Below are positions 2,475-16,745 of a DNA stretch of 64,000 nt, in pieces (position 1 is the first letter of the stretch; each line of letters begins with the position of its first letter). The stretch comes from Thermoplasmata archaeon (GTDB taxonomy: Archaea; Thermoplasmatota; Thermoplasmata; Methanomassiliicoccales; Methanomethylophilaceae): positions 1-64,000 of the forward strand of contig SUSZ01000008.1 in assembly GCA_015063165.1 (NCBI GenBank), in the 5' to 3' direction. The position numbers and the translations under genes were made by a program. The notes under the pieces were generated by a model. That model was given only the letters and a program-made list of their open reading frames with translations. It ran no database searches and was not told the origin of the DNA.

Positions 2475-3272
2475 TCAGACCCGTCGTCCGGAATACCCCG
2501 CCGGTCCGACTTCGAACACGACCTCCAGCGAGCCCCCGAACTCGTCCGAGCGCATGCAGATCGCTCTGAGGACGTACGTCCCCGGCGAATCGGCGGTCAT
2601 CCTGAACACATGAGAGCCCCCTACGCCGTCCAGCATCTCGGGGTTCGGGTCCGACACGTACCGGCTCTCGCATCTCAGCCCCCCGTCCTCCACGACATGC
2701 CATTCGAATCCGGTCGTGATGTTGGAGCTGACCGAATACTCCGCCGGCTCTCCGGCCTTCCCCGTCAGCCTGGCGCGGATGCTCACCGGCAAGACGCGGA
2801 TCTTCAGCATCCTCAGGCCTTCGGACGAGGAGAGGGCGAGCCTGCGGTCGCCGGGAGTCCCGCACCTGATCCGGAGCAGCGTCCCGGCCCCGTCATCGAC
2901 GATGCCGCATTCCGTCCCGCCGTCCTCGACGACCTCCCAGGGTCCTTCCCCTTCCTCGTCCAGCCGGATCTCCAGAGGGAACCCCTCCACGACGCTCGCG
3001 TAGATGCGGCGGTCCTTCCTGCAGACGAAGACTACGAGGTCCAGCACGCCGTCCGGGAGCTCCGGGGTGCTCTCGCTGCATCTCGCCCTCAGGACGTGCT
3101 TACCGATCGCCCTCGACAGGACCGAGAACCTCCTCCCGCCGCCGCTCTCGTCGTCCCAGCTGTCGAAGTCGACACCTCTGTCCGACTCGAGGCGCCACCT
3201 GCATCCTTTGGGCGATTCCAGGTTGAACGCATGGCGCTCGCCTGCTCCGAGGACTATGACGACCGATGTCAT
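2475..3272 (-). CDS. Tandem chagasin-like (I42 inhibitor-like) domain protein
   Basis: About 265 residues from the ATG at 3272; the frame stays open further upstream. The C-terminal half shows chagasin-family landmarks: an N-x-T-T-G-F-x-W loop (SNITTGFEWHV), a G-x-G-G turn followed by a beta strand (GVGGSHVFRMTA) and a final strand YVLRAICMR where I42 inhibitors carry RPW. The N-terminal half has a degenerate version (GCRWRLES, GGGRRFSVL, KHVLRARC). Chagasins block papain-type cysteine proteases. No signal peptide is visible. It is the last gene of the flavodoxin operon, 55 bp after the reductase. The inhibitor role is inferred; a generic beta-sandwich is the alternative. Confidence 0.5.
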   Translation of the reverse strand: MTSVVIVLGAGERHAFNLESPKGCRWRLESDRGVDFDSWDDESGGGRRFSVLSRAIGKHVLRARCSESTPELPDGVLDLVVFVCRKDRRIYASVVEGFPLEIRLDEEGEGPWEVVEDGGTECGIVDDGAGTLLRIRCGTPGDRRLALSSSEGLRMLKIRVLPVSIRARLTGKAGEPAEYSVSSNITTGFEWHVVEDGGLRCESRYVSDPNPEMLDGVGGSHVFRMTADSPGTYVLRAICMRSDEFGGSLEVVFEVGPAGYSGRRV

Positions 3273-3327
3273 GGGGCGAGAGACCACGGTAGAGGATGAT
3301 AACCGTTGGCCTCCTGCCGACGTCTGT

Positions 3328-4161
3328 TCACTGCTCGTACTGAGGCTGCCAGGCTGCGAACTGCACCAGCTGGTCATCGGTGCGGTGGTAATACCTCTCG
3401 CCGCGATCCAGCCTCTCGATGTCTCCCATCTCGGAATCGGTCAGGTTGAAATCCAGGATGTCGAAGTTGTCCTTTATGTGGTCAACGTTCCTGCTCCCGG
3501 GGATGACGGCGAATCCCATCTGCACATGCCACCTGAGGATCACCTGTGCGGGGGTCTTGCCATATTTCTCTCCCAGATCCTTGAACACAGGTTCGGACAT
3601 CAGCCTGCTGTCGCCGTGACCCAGAGGGTACCAGCTCATGATCCTGATCCCGTACCTGTCGAGCAGGACACGAAGGTCCTTCTGGGTGAAGTAGGGGTGC
3701 GCTTCCACCTGGATGAATTGGGGCACGATCTCCCACTTGTCCTTCAGAGATTCTATGTACTTTCCCTCGAAGTTGGAGATGCCGATCGCTTTCGCCTTGC
3801 CTTCCCTATACGCCTTCTCCAGCTGCCTGTATCCCGCCAACCAGTCCCCGGCGGGCTGGTGGATGTAAAGCAGGTCGACATAGTCCAGGCCGAGACGTTC
3901 GAGGGTCTCGTCCACGGCGTGGGGGTTGGTATACTCGCTGGGCCACAGCTTGGTGGATACGAAGATCTCCTTCCTGTCCACTCCGCTCGATCTGATCCCG
4001 CGTCCGCAGGCCCTCTCGTTGACATACGCGTTGGCCGTATCGACCATGCGATATCCTATCCTCAGCGCCTCCCTGACGCTGTTCTCAGCCTCTTCCGGGG
4101 AGAGCATGTACGTTCCGATCCCGATCTCGGGACATTCCATTCCGTTGTTCAGCTTTATCAT
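3328..4161 (-). CDS. Aldo/keto reductase
   Basis: A 277-residue NAD(P)H-dependent oxidoreductase of the AKR TIM-barrel family. The tetrad is visible: Asp in MVDTANAY followed by Tyr of that segment, Lys in STKLW and His in LLYIHQP. The cofactor-binding end has AVIPGSRNVDHIKDN. Length is typical for 2,5-diketogluconate-reductase-like AKRs. I chose the ATG at 4161 because an upstream TTG start would overlap the acetyltransferase, while this one begins 4 bp after its stop. Third gene of a four-gene leftward operon. The substrate is unknown; the homologous bacterial context suggests reduction of small carbonyl compounds. Confidence 0.9.
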   Translation of the reverse strand: MIKLNNGMECPEIGIGTYMLSPEEAENSVREALRIGYRMVDTANAYVNERACGRGIRSSGVDRKEIFVSTKLWPSEYTNPHAVDETLERLGLDYVDLLYIHQPAGDWLAGYRQLEKAYREGKAKAIGISNFEGKYIESLKDKWEIVPQFIQVEAHPYFTQKDLRVLLDRYGIRIMSWYPLGHGDSRLMSEPVFKDLGEKYGKTPAQVILRWHVQMGFAVIPGSRNVDHIKDNFDILDFNLTDSEMGDIERLDRGERYYHRTDDQLVQFAAWQPQYEQ

Positions 4162-10593: not shown

Positions 10594-11060
10594 TACGTTA
10601 TGATGGATTTAACGCTGTCCCATGCCTTGTTCTTCGAATGCGAGCCGGATTCAATTTTCCAGGCGGGGCAGACACCTCCTCCGTCCTAGTCGTTTTCAAT
10701 CGTCAATTCATGGTCACCATGATCGTCCACAATTCTCCGGTCATTACCGTTTTAATATCGTTTGCACACCGATAACAATATGCTTCCATCAAGGTCGATG
10801 CGTCCGTTACACCCTGGTTCTTAAATTACCATATGTGTTCAACCGCCGATTGTTGATTGTCTGGTGTATTACATATGTCCTTTTTAGCTACGATTGACAT
10901 CAATCGATAATTGGATAATTACAACAATATCTTTTGAATTATTTGAATAATATATACTAATTATAATAATAAAAAATATAATATTAATTATTTTTCTCCG
11001 TTCATATTAATCATTATTTCTCAGTCAATCATCCAACGATACAAGATGTTAAATATTATC
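10594..11060. other. AT-rich intergenic region before the MarR gene
   Basis: About 470 bases without a gene. The right half (10900-11060) is almost pure A/T and ends with a TATA-like TTAAATATTATC directly before the operator of the MarR gene. Short ORFs in the left half show no protein-like content. It probably contains the promoter of the leftward surface-protein gene as well. Confidence 0.5.
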
Positions 11061-11072
11061 TTGACTTGTCAA
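11061..11072. promoter_or_regulatory. Operator-like dyad TTGAC-TT-GTCAA at the MarR promoter
   Basis: Inverted repeat TTGACTTGTCAA lies between the TATA-like TTAAATATTATC and the ATG at 11078, a position suited to autorepression by steric block. The same core TTGA-N4-TCAA appears before mttB and the permease gene. Confidence 0.6.
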
Positions 11073-11077
11073 TATTC

Positions 11078-11665
11078 ATGGTTATAGGAACATACGGTTC
11101 GTATTGGAATTCGTATCTTCCCATGTTCTTCGACAGAATGAGCGCTTTGATGAAGAAGAAAATGACGGAAGTCGTGCAGAGTGAGGGCATCACCAGCGCT
11201 CACGCCATTTACCTCATCGCTCTGAGGCTCCAGGACGGACAGACGATGGCAGAGATATCCCATTTCCTCGATTTGGATCAGGCCAACACCCATCGTGTCA
11301 TGAAAGTCCTTAGCGAGAAAAAGCTGGTATATGACGACCGCATGACCCCAACCAGCAAGAAGTTCAGCATCATGCTTACTCAGAAAGGTAAGGACCTAGC
11401 CGACCGCGTCATGCAATCGACTGAAGAATATCTTGACAATTGCTTCAAAGATGTGTCCGATGACGAGCTGTTCCAGGTCAGGAACACGCTCATCAAAGTC
11501 CTGATGAGGATGGATCCAGACCTCAATGCGTACATGAACTCGCCCAAATGGAAGAACCCCTTCTTTGTTTATCTAGCCTTCATGCCTCCCGAGGAGGAGG
11601 CTGACTACTACGGCATGGTGGAGTCGAGGCTACTACATGAGAGAAAGAAACACAAGACGGAATGA
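11078..11665 (+). CDS. MarR-family transcriptional regulator
   Basis: A 195-residue protein with a MarR-type winged helix: helices around SAHAIYLIALRLQDG, then TMAEISHFLDLDQANTHRVMKVLSEKKLVYDD as the recognition region and a wing (RMTPTSKKFSIMLTQKGKDLADRVM). A C-terminal extension of ~60 residues (YMNSPKWKNPFF...) is longer than usual. ATG 11078 is chosen over a TTG at 11066 because the TTG lies inside the operator dyad. It is convergent with mttC-mttB. The shared dyad suggests that it controls the trimethylamine genes and itself; this is inference. Ligand candidates would be methylamines. Confidence 0.87.
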   Translation: MVIGTYGSYWNSYLPMFFDRMSALMKKKMTEVVQSEGITSAHAIYLIALRLQDGQTMAEISHFLDLDQANTHRVMKVLSEKKLVYDDRMTPTSKKFSIMLTQKGKDLADRVMQSTEEYLDNCFKDVSDDELFQVRNTLIKVLMRMDPDLNAYMNSPKWKNPFFVYLAFMPPEEEADYYGMVESRLLHERKKHKTE

Positions 11666-11735
11666 ATCTGCCGTGGTTTCTTACAATACAATGATTTGAT
11701 GAAATCCATATTTTTCTGGTTTGGATAAGAATGGG

Positions 11736-11770
11736 CGGGTCGTCGGGGAGGAACTGAAGCCGACGACCCG
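11736..11770. terminator. Hairpin between the convergent MarR and mttC genes
   Basis: An 11-bp perfect stem CGGGTCGTCGG / CCGACGACCCG with a 13-nt loop, 10 bp past the mttC stop and 70 bp past the MarR stop. There is no strong U-tract, so it may act as a 3'-end stabiliser rather than a classical terminator. Confidence 0.55.
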
Positions 11771-11779
11771 GTAATATGT

Positions 11780-12430
11780 TTATTCCACTGCTGCCGAGAG
11801 CTTATCGGCACAGTCGTTGGCGTTCTCAGAGTATATGTCCGCTCCGATCTCGTCTGCCCACTGCTGGGTTACAGGGGCTCCGCCGACGTTCGTAAGGAGC
11901 TCGCCCCTGATTCCGGCTTCGACGAGCTTCTTCTCCAGAGTCTTCTGGTGGACCATGGTGGAGGTCATGAGAGCAGATGTTCCAACGACTTTCGGCTTAT
12001 ACTTTTTGCAAGCAGCCACTATATCAACTATGGGAACGTCTCTTCCGAGGTTGTTCACATCGAATCCTTTGACTTTCAGCATGATTGCGCATATGTCCTT
12101 CCCTATCGAATGGATGTCTCCCTCGATGGAGCAGATGAGCACCGTCCCTTTGGAATCGGCTCCTGTCATGCCTGCTTTCTCGATCTCCGGAGTAAGTACC
12201 TCAACCCCAGCGGTCATCGCCCCGGCCGCAGCCATGATATGGGGCAGGAATAGCTTCTTTTGGCTGAACAGGTCCCCAATCTCCTGGATGGCCTTGGTAA
12301 ATCCATTGTCGATCACGTACACCAGGTCATCGCCCTCGTCGATCGCCTTCTGCGCTGCGGCCTTGCTTCCTTTAACGTCATATTTCATCACAGCTTCATA
12401 TGCCATCTTAGCCGCTTCTTCGCTGGTCAT
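11780..12430 (-). CDS. mttC: Trimethylamine corrinoid protein
   Basis: A 216-residue methyltransferase corrinoid protein. Residues ~1-90 form the helical cap domain (EAVMKYD, DLFSQKKLFLPHIMAAAGAM) and ~92-216 the B12-binding Rossmann domain. The cobalt ligand motif D-x-H-x-x-G is present as GDIHSIGKDI (His ~107), with a further cobalamin loop TSALMTSTM and GGAPVT. It accepts the methyl group from trimethylamine via MttB, to be passed on to coenzyme M by an MtaA/MtbA-type enzyme. The ATG directly follows the mttB TGA with no gap, indicating translational coupling. It could serve a related methylamine, but pairing with mttB favours trimethylamine. Confidence 0.93.
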   Translation of the reverse strand: MTSEEAAKMAYEAVMKYDVKGSKAAAQKAIDEGDDLVYVIDNGFTKAIQEIGDLFSQKKLFLPHIMAAAGAMTAGVEVLTPEIEKAGMTGADSKGTVLICSIEGDIHSIGKDICAIMLKVKGFDVNNLGRDVPIVDIVAACKKYKPKVVGTSALMTSTMVHQKTLEKKLVEAGIRGELLTNVGGAPVTQQWADEIGADIYSENANDCADKLSAAVE

Positions 12431-13891
12431 TCACTGAACCCCCCCGAGCTTCTCCCTCTTCCTGTCGATCAGAGCATCGATCTTGGCGTTCCTGTCCGCA
12501 AGGATAATGTTGTCAGAGGGCTTACTAAGTATCTCCACGACCTTTTCGTGCGCCCGCTGTACCGTCTCCTTTGAACCGGCGGTGGCCCATGTGTCAAACA
12601 TGTCCCTGTTGATCAGCTCAGGCCTCGAAGGATAATCCACGTTAGCCATAGTGTCAGGCTGCGCGAAGAAGTTGCCCTCGCTTCCCACCTCGATGATGCT
12701 GTCAACGGCCAGCGTCTCATCGCTGACCTCGATTCCCTTGATAGCGTACTGGATCATCCCGATAATGTCATTGTCTATGACCATCTGCTCAAAGGAGACC
12801 GACATTCCAAGCTCGAGCATTCCCGCCCCATAGATGTTGGAGGACCTGGTAAGCATGGGAAGGATCCCGGTGATCGTCTTCTCATGTGCCGCCTGAGCAT
12901 CGGGAGTCTTGGAATCGGACTAGGTCCCAGCTACCACAGCGGGTATCTTGTAGTACTGCGCGAGCTCCCCCACTGCTGCGCTGATGAGCGCGAGCTCCGG
13001 CGACCCGACAGGGGTGGAGTTGTTGAAGAAATCGAAGGTGTTAGTGGAACTACCATAAACGACCTTGGTTCCAGGCTTAACAAGCTCGGCAAGGATTATC
13101 AGAGCGAGCACCTCGGCGTTGTGAGTCACCAGCGTGCCTGCGAGGAAGATGGGCGTGGTGGCTCCCCCCATCCCACAGGAGAGGCTCATGATCGGCATAT
13201 CGTACTTGGCGCCGACGATAGCCTGGCGACAAACGTTCGCATCAATGGTGAGAGGGCTGGTAGGGCAAGCTCCGGAGACTATATAGGGCTTCTCGATCAC
13301 GTCTTTTATGTCCTTCCCGCGTGCGATCGCCTGCATCTCATAAAGCTCATCGACAAAGTCAGGGATGGCTTCTACGAGCTGCGGCTTCTTGGTGTTCTTC
13401 ATGACCGCCTGTGTCTCCAGGAGGTGAACGCATGGGTCGGTAGTCTTGTCCATCGCTGCTATGGGAGCGGAGCATATCCAATTGATGTTGTCGCACTTGT
13501 CAACGACGGCGCACATATCCTCGATATCCCTGAGGGTGGAGTCCCTGATGCTGTATTTTCCTGGCGCCTCGTATTCGATTATCCTTGTGCCGGTGGCGAA
13601 CGTCAGGTTGCGAACAACAGAACCATCCGATGTGAGCTCGAAAGCCGGCTCACCGTCGCGGTCATAGAGCATGAAGCTCGGCGGCGCACAGGCCAGAGCC
13701 TTCTCGGCCACCTGGGCGGGTATCCTCACTATTCCGGTCTCATCGTCGACAGAGCATCCGTTCGCGCGGAAAATGTCCCTTGCCTCTTTCAATCTGACCT
13801 GAATTCCCGCTTCGCTCATGACCCTCAAGGTTGCCTTGTGGATCTTGTCGAGATCGGACTCCGACAGAATCTGCAGCTTGATGTTTTTCAT
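12431..13891 (-). CDS. mttB: Trimethylamine:corrinoid methyltransferase with in-frame UAG (pyrrolysine)
   Basis: A single 486-residue protein if the TAG at 12920-12922 (codon 324) is read as pyrrolysine; ordinary translation would cut it in two. The segment around the codon (VVAGT-O-SDSKTPDAQAA) is the conserved active-site neighbourhood of MttB, and the length is close to the usual ~490. It forms a TIM barrel and transfers a methyl group from trimethylamine to MttC. A Shine-Dalgarno-like AGGAGAT precedes ATG 13891, and a TATA box (TTTAAATATTTTG) and the dyad TCTTGA-TTCG-TCAAGA lie upstream. First gene of the mttB-mttC operon. No pyl genes are in this window, so they must be elsewhere. Confidence 0.96.
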
Positions 13892-13933
13892 TTCTATCTC
13901 CTACGCTGTTGCGTGTATGATGGATTGTCTTTC

Positions 13934-13963
13934 AAAATATTTAAAGGTCTTGATTCGTCAAGA
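13934..13963 (-). promoter_or_regulatory. mttBC promoter with upstream dyad
   Basis: On the minus strand, perfect dyad TCTTGA-TTCG-TCAAGA (13948-13963) is followed by TATA-like CCTTTAAATATTTTG, then mttB about 50 bp later. The dyad abuts the BRE/TATA on its upstream side, unlike at the MarR gene, so the protein bound here could activate or could block TFB. Confidence 0.65.
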
Positions 13964-14411
13964 TTTATTTTGATTTGATAAGATAATTTTCTGGCCTTCT
14001 AAATCTTGTCATTCCAACTTCGTCGCGGAACCAACAGATTCTCTTCATAATAATATATATTTTAACATTTATATTATATTTTATATTGATTATTAAAAAA
14101 TAATTAACTTCATTCGGAATTATAATCATATCATATAATGCTACAAATTTGTTCACCGTAACGAACTGATAACTCAATTCAACACGCCCATGGCCTATTT
14201 ACTCAGAAAGTCAAATCCGATCGTTCTAGAGTTATCTCATGTGCATTCTGGTGCATCAAATCAGTGTATGAATTAATTATATCAATTAAATATAAAATTT
14301 TAATAAAATTATTTTGATTATTAAATATATTTCAATACTATAATATTAATACAGTCCAATTTCTTCAAATCAATTATTTGAAAAATAATTTTAGTTATAT
14401 CATAATTTATT
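13964..14411. other. AT-rich divergent intergenic region
   Basis: About 450 bases between the mttB and permease promoters, very AT-rich (long runs of A/T around 14040-14110 and 14270-14410). No ORF with protein-like content or structured RNA was recognised. Its length and composition suggest curved or nucleoprotein-bound DNA separating two divergent promoters. Confidence 0.5.
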
Positions 14412-14436
14412 TTGATTCGTCAAGAATTTTAAATAT
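14412..14436 (+). promoter_or_regulatory. Permease-operon promoter with upstream dyad
   Basis: Dyad TTGA-TTCG-TCAA (14412-14423) is immediately followed by TATA-like GAATTTTAAATATC. The arrangement (dyad then TATA) mirrors that of mttB. The leader after it contains a 7-bp stem CCTCGGC/GCCGAGG (14460-14494) and a strong ribosome binding site AAAGGAGG. Confidence 0.65.
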
Positions 14437-14519: not shown

Positions 14520-15593
14520 ATGACGAGTTTAGAAGAGCTATCAGCTCTCACAAAGCAGAATCGTGTCAGATGGGGTTTCATCTGGGGGATTCTTTGTGCA
14601 CTTTTATGGGGATTTGGATACGTCCCCGTATCTGCTTTATGGAGCGTCGAGCCCATTCTGAGCTTTGACTATGGGGTCGACTCGTCCATCGCATATCTCG
14701 TGATATCTATCGTTATCACAGCCATACAGGCTCTGGTGTTCGCAGCATGTCTGTTTTTCCTATGGACTTTGGTTAGCGGCAAAGCCAAGGATTATGTCAG
14801 AACTTGGTCCAAGCCGCGCATCAGCAAATGGCTGATTCTAGCTGGATTGTTCGGAGGCCCGTTGGGAACTTTCGGATGCAATCTGGCTATCGGGTACATC
14901 GGAGCCGATTTCGCGGCTGCAATGGGTTTGATGACCGCGGTGACCGGGGCCATCATTGGCAGACTGTTCAACAAAGAGAAGCTCTCCAAGAGAGCCATCG
15001 TTGGTTTATGCGTAATTCTGGTCGGCGGATTGATTGTCCTCAATCCGTTGAATATGATTGACAACATCATGAATCCCGCCTCGCCGGATGGAATCGTTCT
15101 CGGATACATCGGTTCGGTCATGATCACCATCGGCATGGGCATCGAAGGGTTCGTCGTCTCCAGGGTCATGGACGTAACCGATTCTGATATAAGCGCTTCC
15201 ATCAGGTATGCCGGTGAGGCGGCCATATGGTTCATCATTTTACTGCCTATGACCGGCTGTTTCATTGGATTCGGCACTATGTTCGACATCCTAGCGGATT
15301 GTTTCACCAGCCCCGGATTCATGTATTTCGCTGTACTGTCAGGATGCACCCTCGGGCTGTGCTACGCTGGGCTTTACAAGGCTTATCCTCTTCTCGGCGT
15401 CGGTCGGACGCTGAGCATAACCACGCTTTATGTTCCGATTTCGATGGTCGCTCTTTTCATATTCATGGGTCAGGACATCATGTGGTGGGTGATAGTCGGT
15501 GCGATCATCGCCATCATCGGAACGTTCCTGATGTATTGGGAGAGCGATAATCTGGCCGATTCCGTGCGGGACGTCGGAGGCGAGAGCCGATGA
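14520..15593 (+). CDS. EamA/DMT-type multi-spanning permease, probable methylamine transporter
   Basis: A 357-residue membrane protein with about ten hydrophobic helices in two related halves, as in drug/metabolite transporters: the first half includes WGILCALLWGFGYVPVSALW and the second GYIGSVMITIGMGIEGFVVS. GLMTAVTGAIIGRLFNKEKLSKR is the typical end of the first EamA unit. The cytoplasmic tail is short. ATG 14520 is fixed by AAAGGAGG 7 bp upstream. It is divergent from mttB and shares its dyad, so uptake of trimethylamine or a related methyl compound is the best inference; the substrate is not visible in the sequence. Confidence 0.8.
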   Translation: MTSLEELSALTKQNRVRWGFIWGILCALLWGFGYVPVSALWSVEPILSFDYGVDSSIAYLVISIVITAIQALVFAACLFFLWTLVSGKAKDYVRTWSKPRISKWLILAGLFGGPLGTFGCNLAIGYIGADFAAAMGLMTAVTGAIIGRLFNKEKLSKRAIVGLCVILVGGLIVLNPLNMIDNIMNPASPDGIVLGYIGSVMITIGMGIEGFVVSRVMDVTDSDISASIRYAGEAAIWFIILLPMTGCFIGFGTMFDILADCFTSPGFMYFAVLSGCTLGLCYAGLYKAYPLLGVGRTLSITTLYVPISMVALFIFMGQDIMWWVIVGAIIAIIGTFLMYWESDNLADSVRDVGGESR

Positions 15594-15871
15594 ACTATCC
15601 TAGCAAGAGCAGGCTGCTGAAGTATTTCGAAGGGGGCCCACTCTGGGATTACGAAGCCGTCGACAGACTCGCATCTGAAGAGGGCAGGAATGACGCGTAC
15701 TTCAAATGGACTGCTCGTTTTTGGTTGATGGAAATGAGCGGAGGTGGCATAATGGAAATCGTGGAGGAAGGAATCGATGACGGTTCCCATTTCGCCGAGG
15801 GGAAACTCCTGTCAAAGTACAAGCTGACTGAATACGGAAAAAAGAGGATTCATGACCTACTGGGTGATTGA
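15590..15871 (+). CDS. Small protein with a winged-helix-like C-terminus
   Basis: A 93-residue soluble protein. The ATG overlaps the permease TGA (ATGA), indicating coupling. The C-terminal segment SKYKLTEYGKKRIHDLLG resembles the wing/helix end of PadR- or archaeal wHTH-type domains, while the N-terminal half (PLWDYEAVDRLASEEGR) is helical. I do not recognise the family. The operon position suggests a role linked to the permease, as a regulator or accessory subunit. Confidence 0.75.
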   Translation: MNYPSKSRLLKYFEGGPLWDYEAVDRLASEEGRNDAYFKWTARFWLMEMSGGGIMEIVEEGIDDGSHFAEGKLLSKYKLTEYGKKRIHDLLGD

Positions 15872-16046: not shown

Positions 16047-16070
16047 TTCATTGGTCAAATAATTTATAAA
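16047..16070 (+). promoter_or_regulatory. Promoter of the flavoprotein gene with a degenerate dyad
   Basis: TTCA-TTGG-TCAA (one mismatch to the TTGA-N4-TCAA dyad) is followed by TATA-like AATTTATAAAAG. This repeats the dyad-then-TATA order of the mttB and permease promoters, so the flavoprotein may belong to the same regulon. Confidence 0.35.
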
Positions 16071-16187: not shown

Positions 16188-16745
16188 ATGTCGAAAATAG
16201 TCGCAGTTTATGGCAGTCCTCGCGAACAAGGCAATTCCAGCATCTTGGGAAGAGCCGTAATCGATGGCGCCATGGGATTGTCGCTGAACACGATATATCT
16301 CCATAGGTTGAACAATCTGAATTTACAGGGATGCCAGTTCTGTAACAGATGCAAAGAATCTGGCGTTTGCTGTTTAAAAGACGATGTCTCACCTATTCTG
16401 GAAGACATCAGGATGTGCGATTCTCTTGTCCTCTGCTTCCCCCTTTTCTTCTGTGGGCCTTCGGCACAGATGAAGGTCCTGATAGACAGGATGTATTCCT
16501 TCATCGATGCTAACAGGAAACCCAAGTATCCTGGGAAGAAGCTTGTGCTAATCATAACCTATGACAAGAACGAAAGCGCCGATGTCGTAAGTGTCGTGGA
16601 GGCGCAGATGAGGGATTTGTTCTCCAACGTGCTCGGATTCGATTTGAAAGGGTTCCTGATTTACAAATGCGAGCATGACGTAATCGCAGCAGCCAATGAC
16701 GTCGCCATGATCAACCTATCCAAGAAAATCGGCGAGAACCTATGA
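16188..16745 (+). CDS. Iron-sulfur flavoprotein / NADPH-dependent FMN reductase-like
   Basis: A 185-residue flavodoxin-fold protein. The N-terminal FMN phosphate loop is VYGSPREQGNSSIL. A cysteine cluster follows the second strand (CQFCNRCKESGVC) in the arrangement of archaeal iron-sulfur flavoproteins that bind a 4Fe-4S cluster. An FPLFFCGPSAQMKVLIDRMYSF segment is the usual FMN-binding and dimer region. It probably moves electrons between ferredoxin and a methylotrophy component such as reductive activation of corrinoid protein; that role is inferred from the neighbourhood. ATG 16188 follows a weak AGCGAG. Confidence 0.85.
   Translation: MSKIVAVYGSPREQGNSSILGRAVIDGAMGLSLNTIYLHRLNNLNLQGCQFCNRCKESGVCCLKDDVSPILEDIRMCDSLVLCFPLFFCGPSAQMKVLIDRMYSFIDANRKPKYPGKKLVLIITYDKNESADVVSVVEAQMRDLFSNVLGFDLKGFLIYKCEHDVIAAANDVAMINLSKKIGENL

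Follow-up and report, generated by a model that had tools for sequence, protein, structure and literature searches.

The mttBC Locus

The window analyzed here is a stretch of 64 kb from an archaeal genome of 2.28 Mb, which is of the Methanomethylophilaceae type and carries an mttB gene with an in-frame TAG codon. Rumen and gut Methanomethylophilaceae and Methanomassiliicoccaceae were the named relatives with the closest regulator genes. The locus begins with a gene on the plus strand for a MarR-type winged-helix regulator of 195 amino acids (11078–11665), assigned by a Pfam MarR_2 match below cutoff, its predicted fold and Foldseek. It is followed on the minus strand by mttC, encoding a corrinoid protein (11780–12430; Pfam B12-binding, 1.2e-20, and B12-binding_2), and mttB, encoding trimethylamine methyltransferase (12431–13891; Pfam MTTB, 6.7e-86 with the TAG read through), whose in-frame TAG (pyrrolysine) codon is at 12920–12922. 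The plus strand then carries genes for an EamA/DMT-family permease (14520–15593; Pfam EamA, 6.5e-8), a 93-amino-acid protein (15590–15871), which is a conserved neighbor of the permease across relatives and for which the Pfam search returned no matches, and a flavoprotein of the NADPH-dependent FMN reductase type (16188–16745; Pfam FMN_red, 3.4e-15).

The permease and the 93-amino-acid protein (14520–15871) form a two-gene cassette that recurs next to mttBC or mtbCB (loci L079, L098, L101, L102, L103, L105, L113, L117, L137–L139, L146 and L160). This cassette is a candidate methylamine uptake module distinct from the APC permeases. A second copy in the same genome, near mttB34 (L046, contig C34, approximately 2909–4122), was called as two neighboring ORF fragments, possibly due to decay or to an assembly or start-call artefact.

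The MarR-Type Regulator

The sole Pfam match of the regulator was to MarR_2 with 24.2 bits (E 3.7e-5), which is under the curated cutoff of 27; a TrmB DNA-binding or sugar-binding domain was absent by Pfam. The paralogue MarR34 matched MarR and Staph_reg_Sar_Rot, also below cutoff. An AlphaFold model (pLDDT 81) displayed the MarR topology of N-terminal helix, HTH, beta wing and long C-terminal dimer helices (H5-36/H40-52/H57-64/H68-80/E84-86/E98-100/H102-122/H128-145). The top Foldseek matches were ST1710, MepR, MarR and 3s2w of Methanosarcina mazei, mostly with TM values (target length) of 0.7–0.84. As judged from the predicted model, the regulator has a MarR-type winged-helix fold.

In an alignment of 33 members the HTH positions were invariant and an N-terminal YWNSFLP motif was conserved. 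Members of the regulator clade occur repeatedly next to mttB, mtbB, mtmB, pyl-type and permease genes throughout the genus and the family. A tree separated the pair formed by the window and the related genome G006, an APC-permease clade, a clade with tandem dyads and a clade without TTGA dyads, whose promoters contain other palindromes such as ATTGTATATTACAAT. Co-occurrence of MarR and MttB across the genomes, which are incomplete, gave an odds ratio of 9 (p 0.045) and is weak evidence.

Dyads and TATA Boxes in the Window

The original prediction described a dyad TTGA-N4-TCAA at three promoters of the locus, located downstream of the TATA box at the MarR gene and immediately upstream of it at mttB and the permease gene, with a degenerate copy at 16047. 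All of these sites and their arrangement were confirmed. At the MarR gene the exact candidate operator TTGACTTGTCAA (11061–11072) lies between the candidate TATA box GTTAAATA (11048–11055, plus strand; its GTTAAAT is kept in G006) and the ATG start codon at 11078. The mttB promoter contains the exact candidate operator TCTTGATTCGTCAAGA (13948–13963, core 13950–13961) and, 4 bp downstream of it on the minus strand, the TATA box TTTAAATA (13938–13945); both are conserved in G006. An identical gap of 4 bp separates the exact candidate operator TTGATTCGTCAA (14412–14423), 97 bp before the permease gene, from a further TTTAAATA box (14428–14435, plus strand). The degenerate dyad TTCATTGGTCAA (16047–16058) matches 7 of the 8 half-site letters and is found 141 bp before the flavoprotein gene, with the TATA box TTTATAAA (16063–16070) at +4. 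This fourth site is plausible because of its +4 spacing and because G006 has a 7/8 dyad at a similar distance.

The 64-kb window contains no other exact TTGA-N4-TCAA. Shuffled sequences contained 0.46 sites on average and 3 of 100 shuffles reached three, so that the excess within the window is modest.

Conservation and Enrichment across Relatives

The orthologous locus of G006, the closest relative, whose MarR protein is 85% identical, retains all three exact dyads with invariant half-sites and changed spacers. At the mttB promoter the TATA box and the dyad are preserved (window ATTTAAAGGTCTTGATTCGTCAAGATTTAT, G006 ATTTAAATGTCTTGACTAATCAAGATTTAT), while the spacer changed from TTCG to CTAA, giving TCTTGA-CTAA-TCAAGA in G006. 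The MarR-gene dyad of G006 (L079) is TTGATTGGTCAA, directly before the start codon. The permease counterpart, read in permease orientation, is TTGATAAGTCAA and lies 92 bp upstream versus 97 bp in the window. Before the flavoprotein gene G006 carries ATGATAAGTCAA (7/8), which adjoins the TATA-like TTTTAATA and is located at 135 bp versus 141 bp in the window.

The non-coding DNA of 40 relative loci, 67.6 kb in total, contained 21 TTGA-N4-TCAA sites versus 1.68 expected. When the half-site letters were arranged in the 11 remaining orders, 0–2 sites were obtained for each, and among palindromes only G-runs scored higher. The named genome collection provided 15 held-out loci, in which we observed 8 sites versus 0.61 expected and the dyad ranked first of 3,328 combinations of half-site and spacer.

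We also compared genes of a methylamine set (methyltransferases, permeases, MarR and flavoprotein) with all other genes of the loci. An exact dyad was found upstream of 29 of 177 genes of the set versus 3 of 268 others (Fisher 8e-10), a p value that assumes independent regions although the loci are related by ancestry, so that the counts, which rest on mechanical gene calls, overstate independence. The density was 45 sites in 37 kb versus 4 in 49 kb. In these loci the motif is thus not equally frequent in other intergenic DNA. Exact dyads preceded 13 of 67 methyltransferase genes, and most MttB34-type promoters next to MarR34-type regulators lacked one. Among MarR genes only 2 of 46 upstream regions contained an exact dyad, both in the clade of the window and G006; for this reason autoregulation is most likely limited to this clade. 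Since conservation, enrichment and the held-out loci settle what the modest excess in the window leaves unclear, the dyad is judged from these sequence comparisons to be more than chance and looks functional.

Promoter Geometry

Strict TATA boxes starting +1 to +4 bp after the dyad occurred 11 times across the loci, versus 0.18 expected. In four further cases the strict TATA box was situated about 15 bp before the dyad (−27). The window combines both layouts, the dyad being upstream of the TATA box at mttB and the permease gene (+4 each) and downstream of it at the MarR gene. In L102, L103, L104 and L146 dyads are present on either side of one TATA box, and the starts of these tandem dyads are 29–30 bp apart, which is near three helical turns. 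Divergent mttB-like pairs that share an intergenic region with several dyads were observed at L104:98-3324, with four dyads, and at L106:1026-3670.

Sites Elsewhere in the Genome

On the basis of pattern counts and fetched loci, TTGA-N4-TCAA occurs 15 times genome-wide versus 4 times for the reversed pattern. Genomes without this MarR also show such an excess; therefore the evidence is limited to position and gene context. Six of the 15 dyads belong to methylamine genes. Besides the three of the window, they comprise a dyad before mtmC-mtmB (C34:21492) and a single dyad before each of the two APC permeases (C66:7537 and C66:10770) that flank a MarR paralogue. A 7/8 dyad precedes mtbC of mtbCB, and another genome, G001, has the full version in the same place. 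Thus, the scan did reveal the motif at other methylamine operons, exact at mtmCB and the APC permeases and as 7/8 at mtbCB. No exact dyad was detected within 1.5 kb of the second mtmB copy (C17).

The genome encodes at least three paralogues of the regulator clade and, in addition, MarRb (C34:25753), whose promoter contains two exact dyads 23 bp apart (G000:C34:25674 and 25697; L047:5675-5709). The assumption that one MarR protein serves all sites was consequently too simple, and cross-talk between the paralogues is possible because of their number and the two dyads at the MarRb promoter. The MarRb gene is followed by ABC exporter genes, an identical motif with a different regulon. A further dyad, TTGACACATCAA, precedes a topoisomerase-I-like gene by 58 bp (L013:1501; G000:C58:71354) and has no methylamine context.

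Proposed Mode of Regulation

TTGA-N4-TCAA is probably the operator of a methylamine-associated clade of MarR-type proteins in the Methanomethylophilaceae, which would act mainly as repressors and be released by a ligand. At mttB, the permease gene and probably the flavoprotein gene, a MarR dimer would bind the dyad just before the TATA box and adjacent to the BRE; at its own gene the binding site would follow the TATA box and precede the transcription start. From either position the bound dimer could block TBP/TFB or RNA polymerase. We infer that methyltransferase and transport genes would be repressed without methylamine, that MarR would control its own synthesis, and that a signal such as methylamine, corrinoid or redox state would release the protein. 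Direct computation established the dyad and its conservation, its specificity for methylamine genes, the fixed places that it takes relative to the TATA box and the association of the MarR gene with methylamine genes, and the MarR fold comes from the predicted model. The promoters of mttB, the permease gene and the MarR gene thus appear to share a regulatory dyad, as had been proposed, and its link to the MarR protein is supported by the neighborhood and co-conservation of gene and sites. Binding by the local protein in particular is deduced from these two features, because several MarR proteins, among them distant ones in L042 and L044, have the same dyad near their own promoters.

These additional MarR proteins make it conceivable, although rather improbable, that another paralogue or transcription factor, for example MarRb or MarRc66, is the principal binder of the dyad and that the local MarR gene is only a target. 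The multiplicity of clade members and the paired dyads of MarRb would fit such a situation. On the other hand, the local MarR gene adjoins mttC in the window as well as in G006 and has kept its own dyad. Moreover, the mttB dyads of these two genomes are flanked as CTTGA..TCAAG, versus ATTGA..TCAAT in other clades, a difference that points to an adaptation to the local protein. That the sites are chance palindromes of an AT-rich region, or an RNA stem-loop instead of an operator, seems very improbable. The small number of sites in the window, the shuffles that matched it and the genome-wide excess in genomes without this MarR would agree with chance. However, the enrichment over composition-matched controls, the held-out loci, the conservation across species and the fixed TATA spacing refute this, unless the comparative results are artefacts of shared ancestry. 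For a stable hairpin the 4-bp half-sites are too short, and they are located at or before the promoter.

The sign of the regulation was considered separately, since the original prediction assumed that the regulator acts differently on its targets. MarR might repress its own gene from the dyad that follows the TATA box and activate mttB and the permease gene from upstream of the BRE by recruitment of TBP/TFB, like TrmBL1/Tgr; we regard this as possible but doubtful. The position upstream of the TATA box is indeed also where archaeal activators bind, and the two positions match the rule described for TrmBL1/Tgr, according to which sites downstream of BRE/TATA confer repression and sites upstream confer activation (PMC4158304). 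Furthermore, the dyads of mttB and the permease gene both end exactly 4 bp before the TATA box, and at the permease gene an AA is present at the expected BRE position between the dyad and the TATA box. However, the edge of the dyad adjoins the BRE, so that TFB and a bound dimer would probably clash. Opposite signs are also hard to reconcile with the related clades that carry both positions around a single TATA box, and a single sign, repression, would therefore fit better.

Comparison with Known Regulators

Archaeal MarR regulators such as ST1710 of Sulfolobus tokodaii and 3s2w of M. mazei share with the protein described here the fold (from the predicted model), a short palindromic operator (predicted in our case) and a gene that adjoins its targets. 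The regulator differs from both by an identity of only 17–20%, approximately 50 extra C-terminal residues, the conserved YWNSFLP motif and the methylamine gene context. TrmBL1/Tgr of the Thermococcales, members of the TrmB family, resemble it in having a palindrome upstream or downstream of BRE/TATA and a catabolic regulon (PMC4158304). They differ in family and motif (TATCAC-N5-GTGATA), and the regulator found here is without the sugar-binding domain. Both dyad positions of the TrmBL1-like layout occur in our loci, yet also together on one promoter.

One methanogen methylamine regulator was found in the literature searched, namely MM2441 of M. mazei. This ArsR-type protein is a proposed regulator of methanol and methylamine genes and is itself under the control of sRNA162 (PMC3510493). 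It resembles the regulator described here in its suggested role in the transcription of methylamine methyltransferase genes of a methanogen, but belongs to another family and another order, and no comparable dyad was seen in the part of the source considered here (PMC3510493). In the literature searched, no MarR regulon was described that comprises the pyrrolysine-dependent methylamine genes of the Methanomassiliicoccales, and nothing relevant appeared on a link between MarR and methylamine; the comparative genomics literature examined on this order mentioned neither MarR nor a regulator. MarR-type operators as such are already known.

These gut and rumen archaea convert trimethylamine and other methylamines to methane. 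The operator and its candidate regulator make substrate sensing in the Methanomassiliicoccales testable, and the layout of dyads flanking the TATA box is usable for regulon annotation in uncultured genomes.

Variant Palindromes

The dyad is often extended to (A/C)TTGA-N4-TCAA(T/G). Of the dyads with N5 spacing a few look real (L083 and L085). Most ATTG-N7-CAAT matches were rejected as spacing variants, as they belong to another, looser palindrome.

Tentatively, a set of paralogous MarR proteins, one per methylamine cassette, might read different methylamines and act through diverging operators with a position-dependent sign, although we rate this as unlikely. The cassettes would be mttBC-permease, mtbCB-permease, the APC permeases and the flavoprotein. 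The operators would be CTTGA-N4-TCAAG and ATTGA-N4-TCAAT, to which the clade of L097, L098 and L101 perhaps adds ATTGT-N5-ACAAT. The ATTGTATATTACAAT-like palindrome, which is possibly a diverged operator, was found mostly in the MarR clade without TTGA dyads. It precedes mtbB, permease and mttC genes at L101:13361, L101:7078 and L138:3905.
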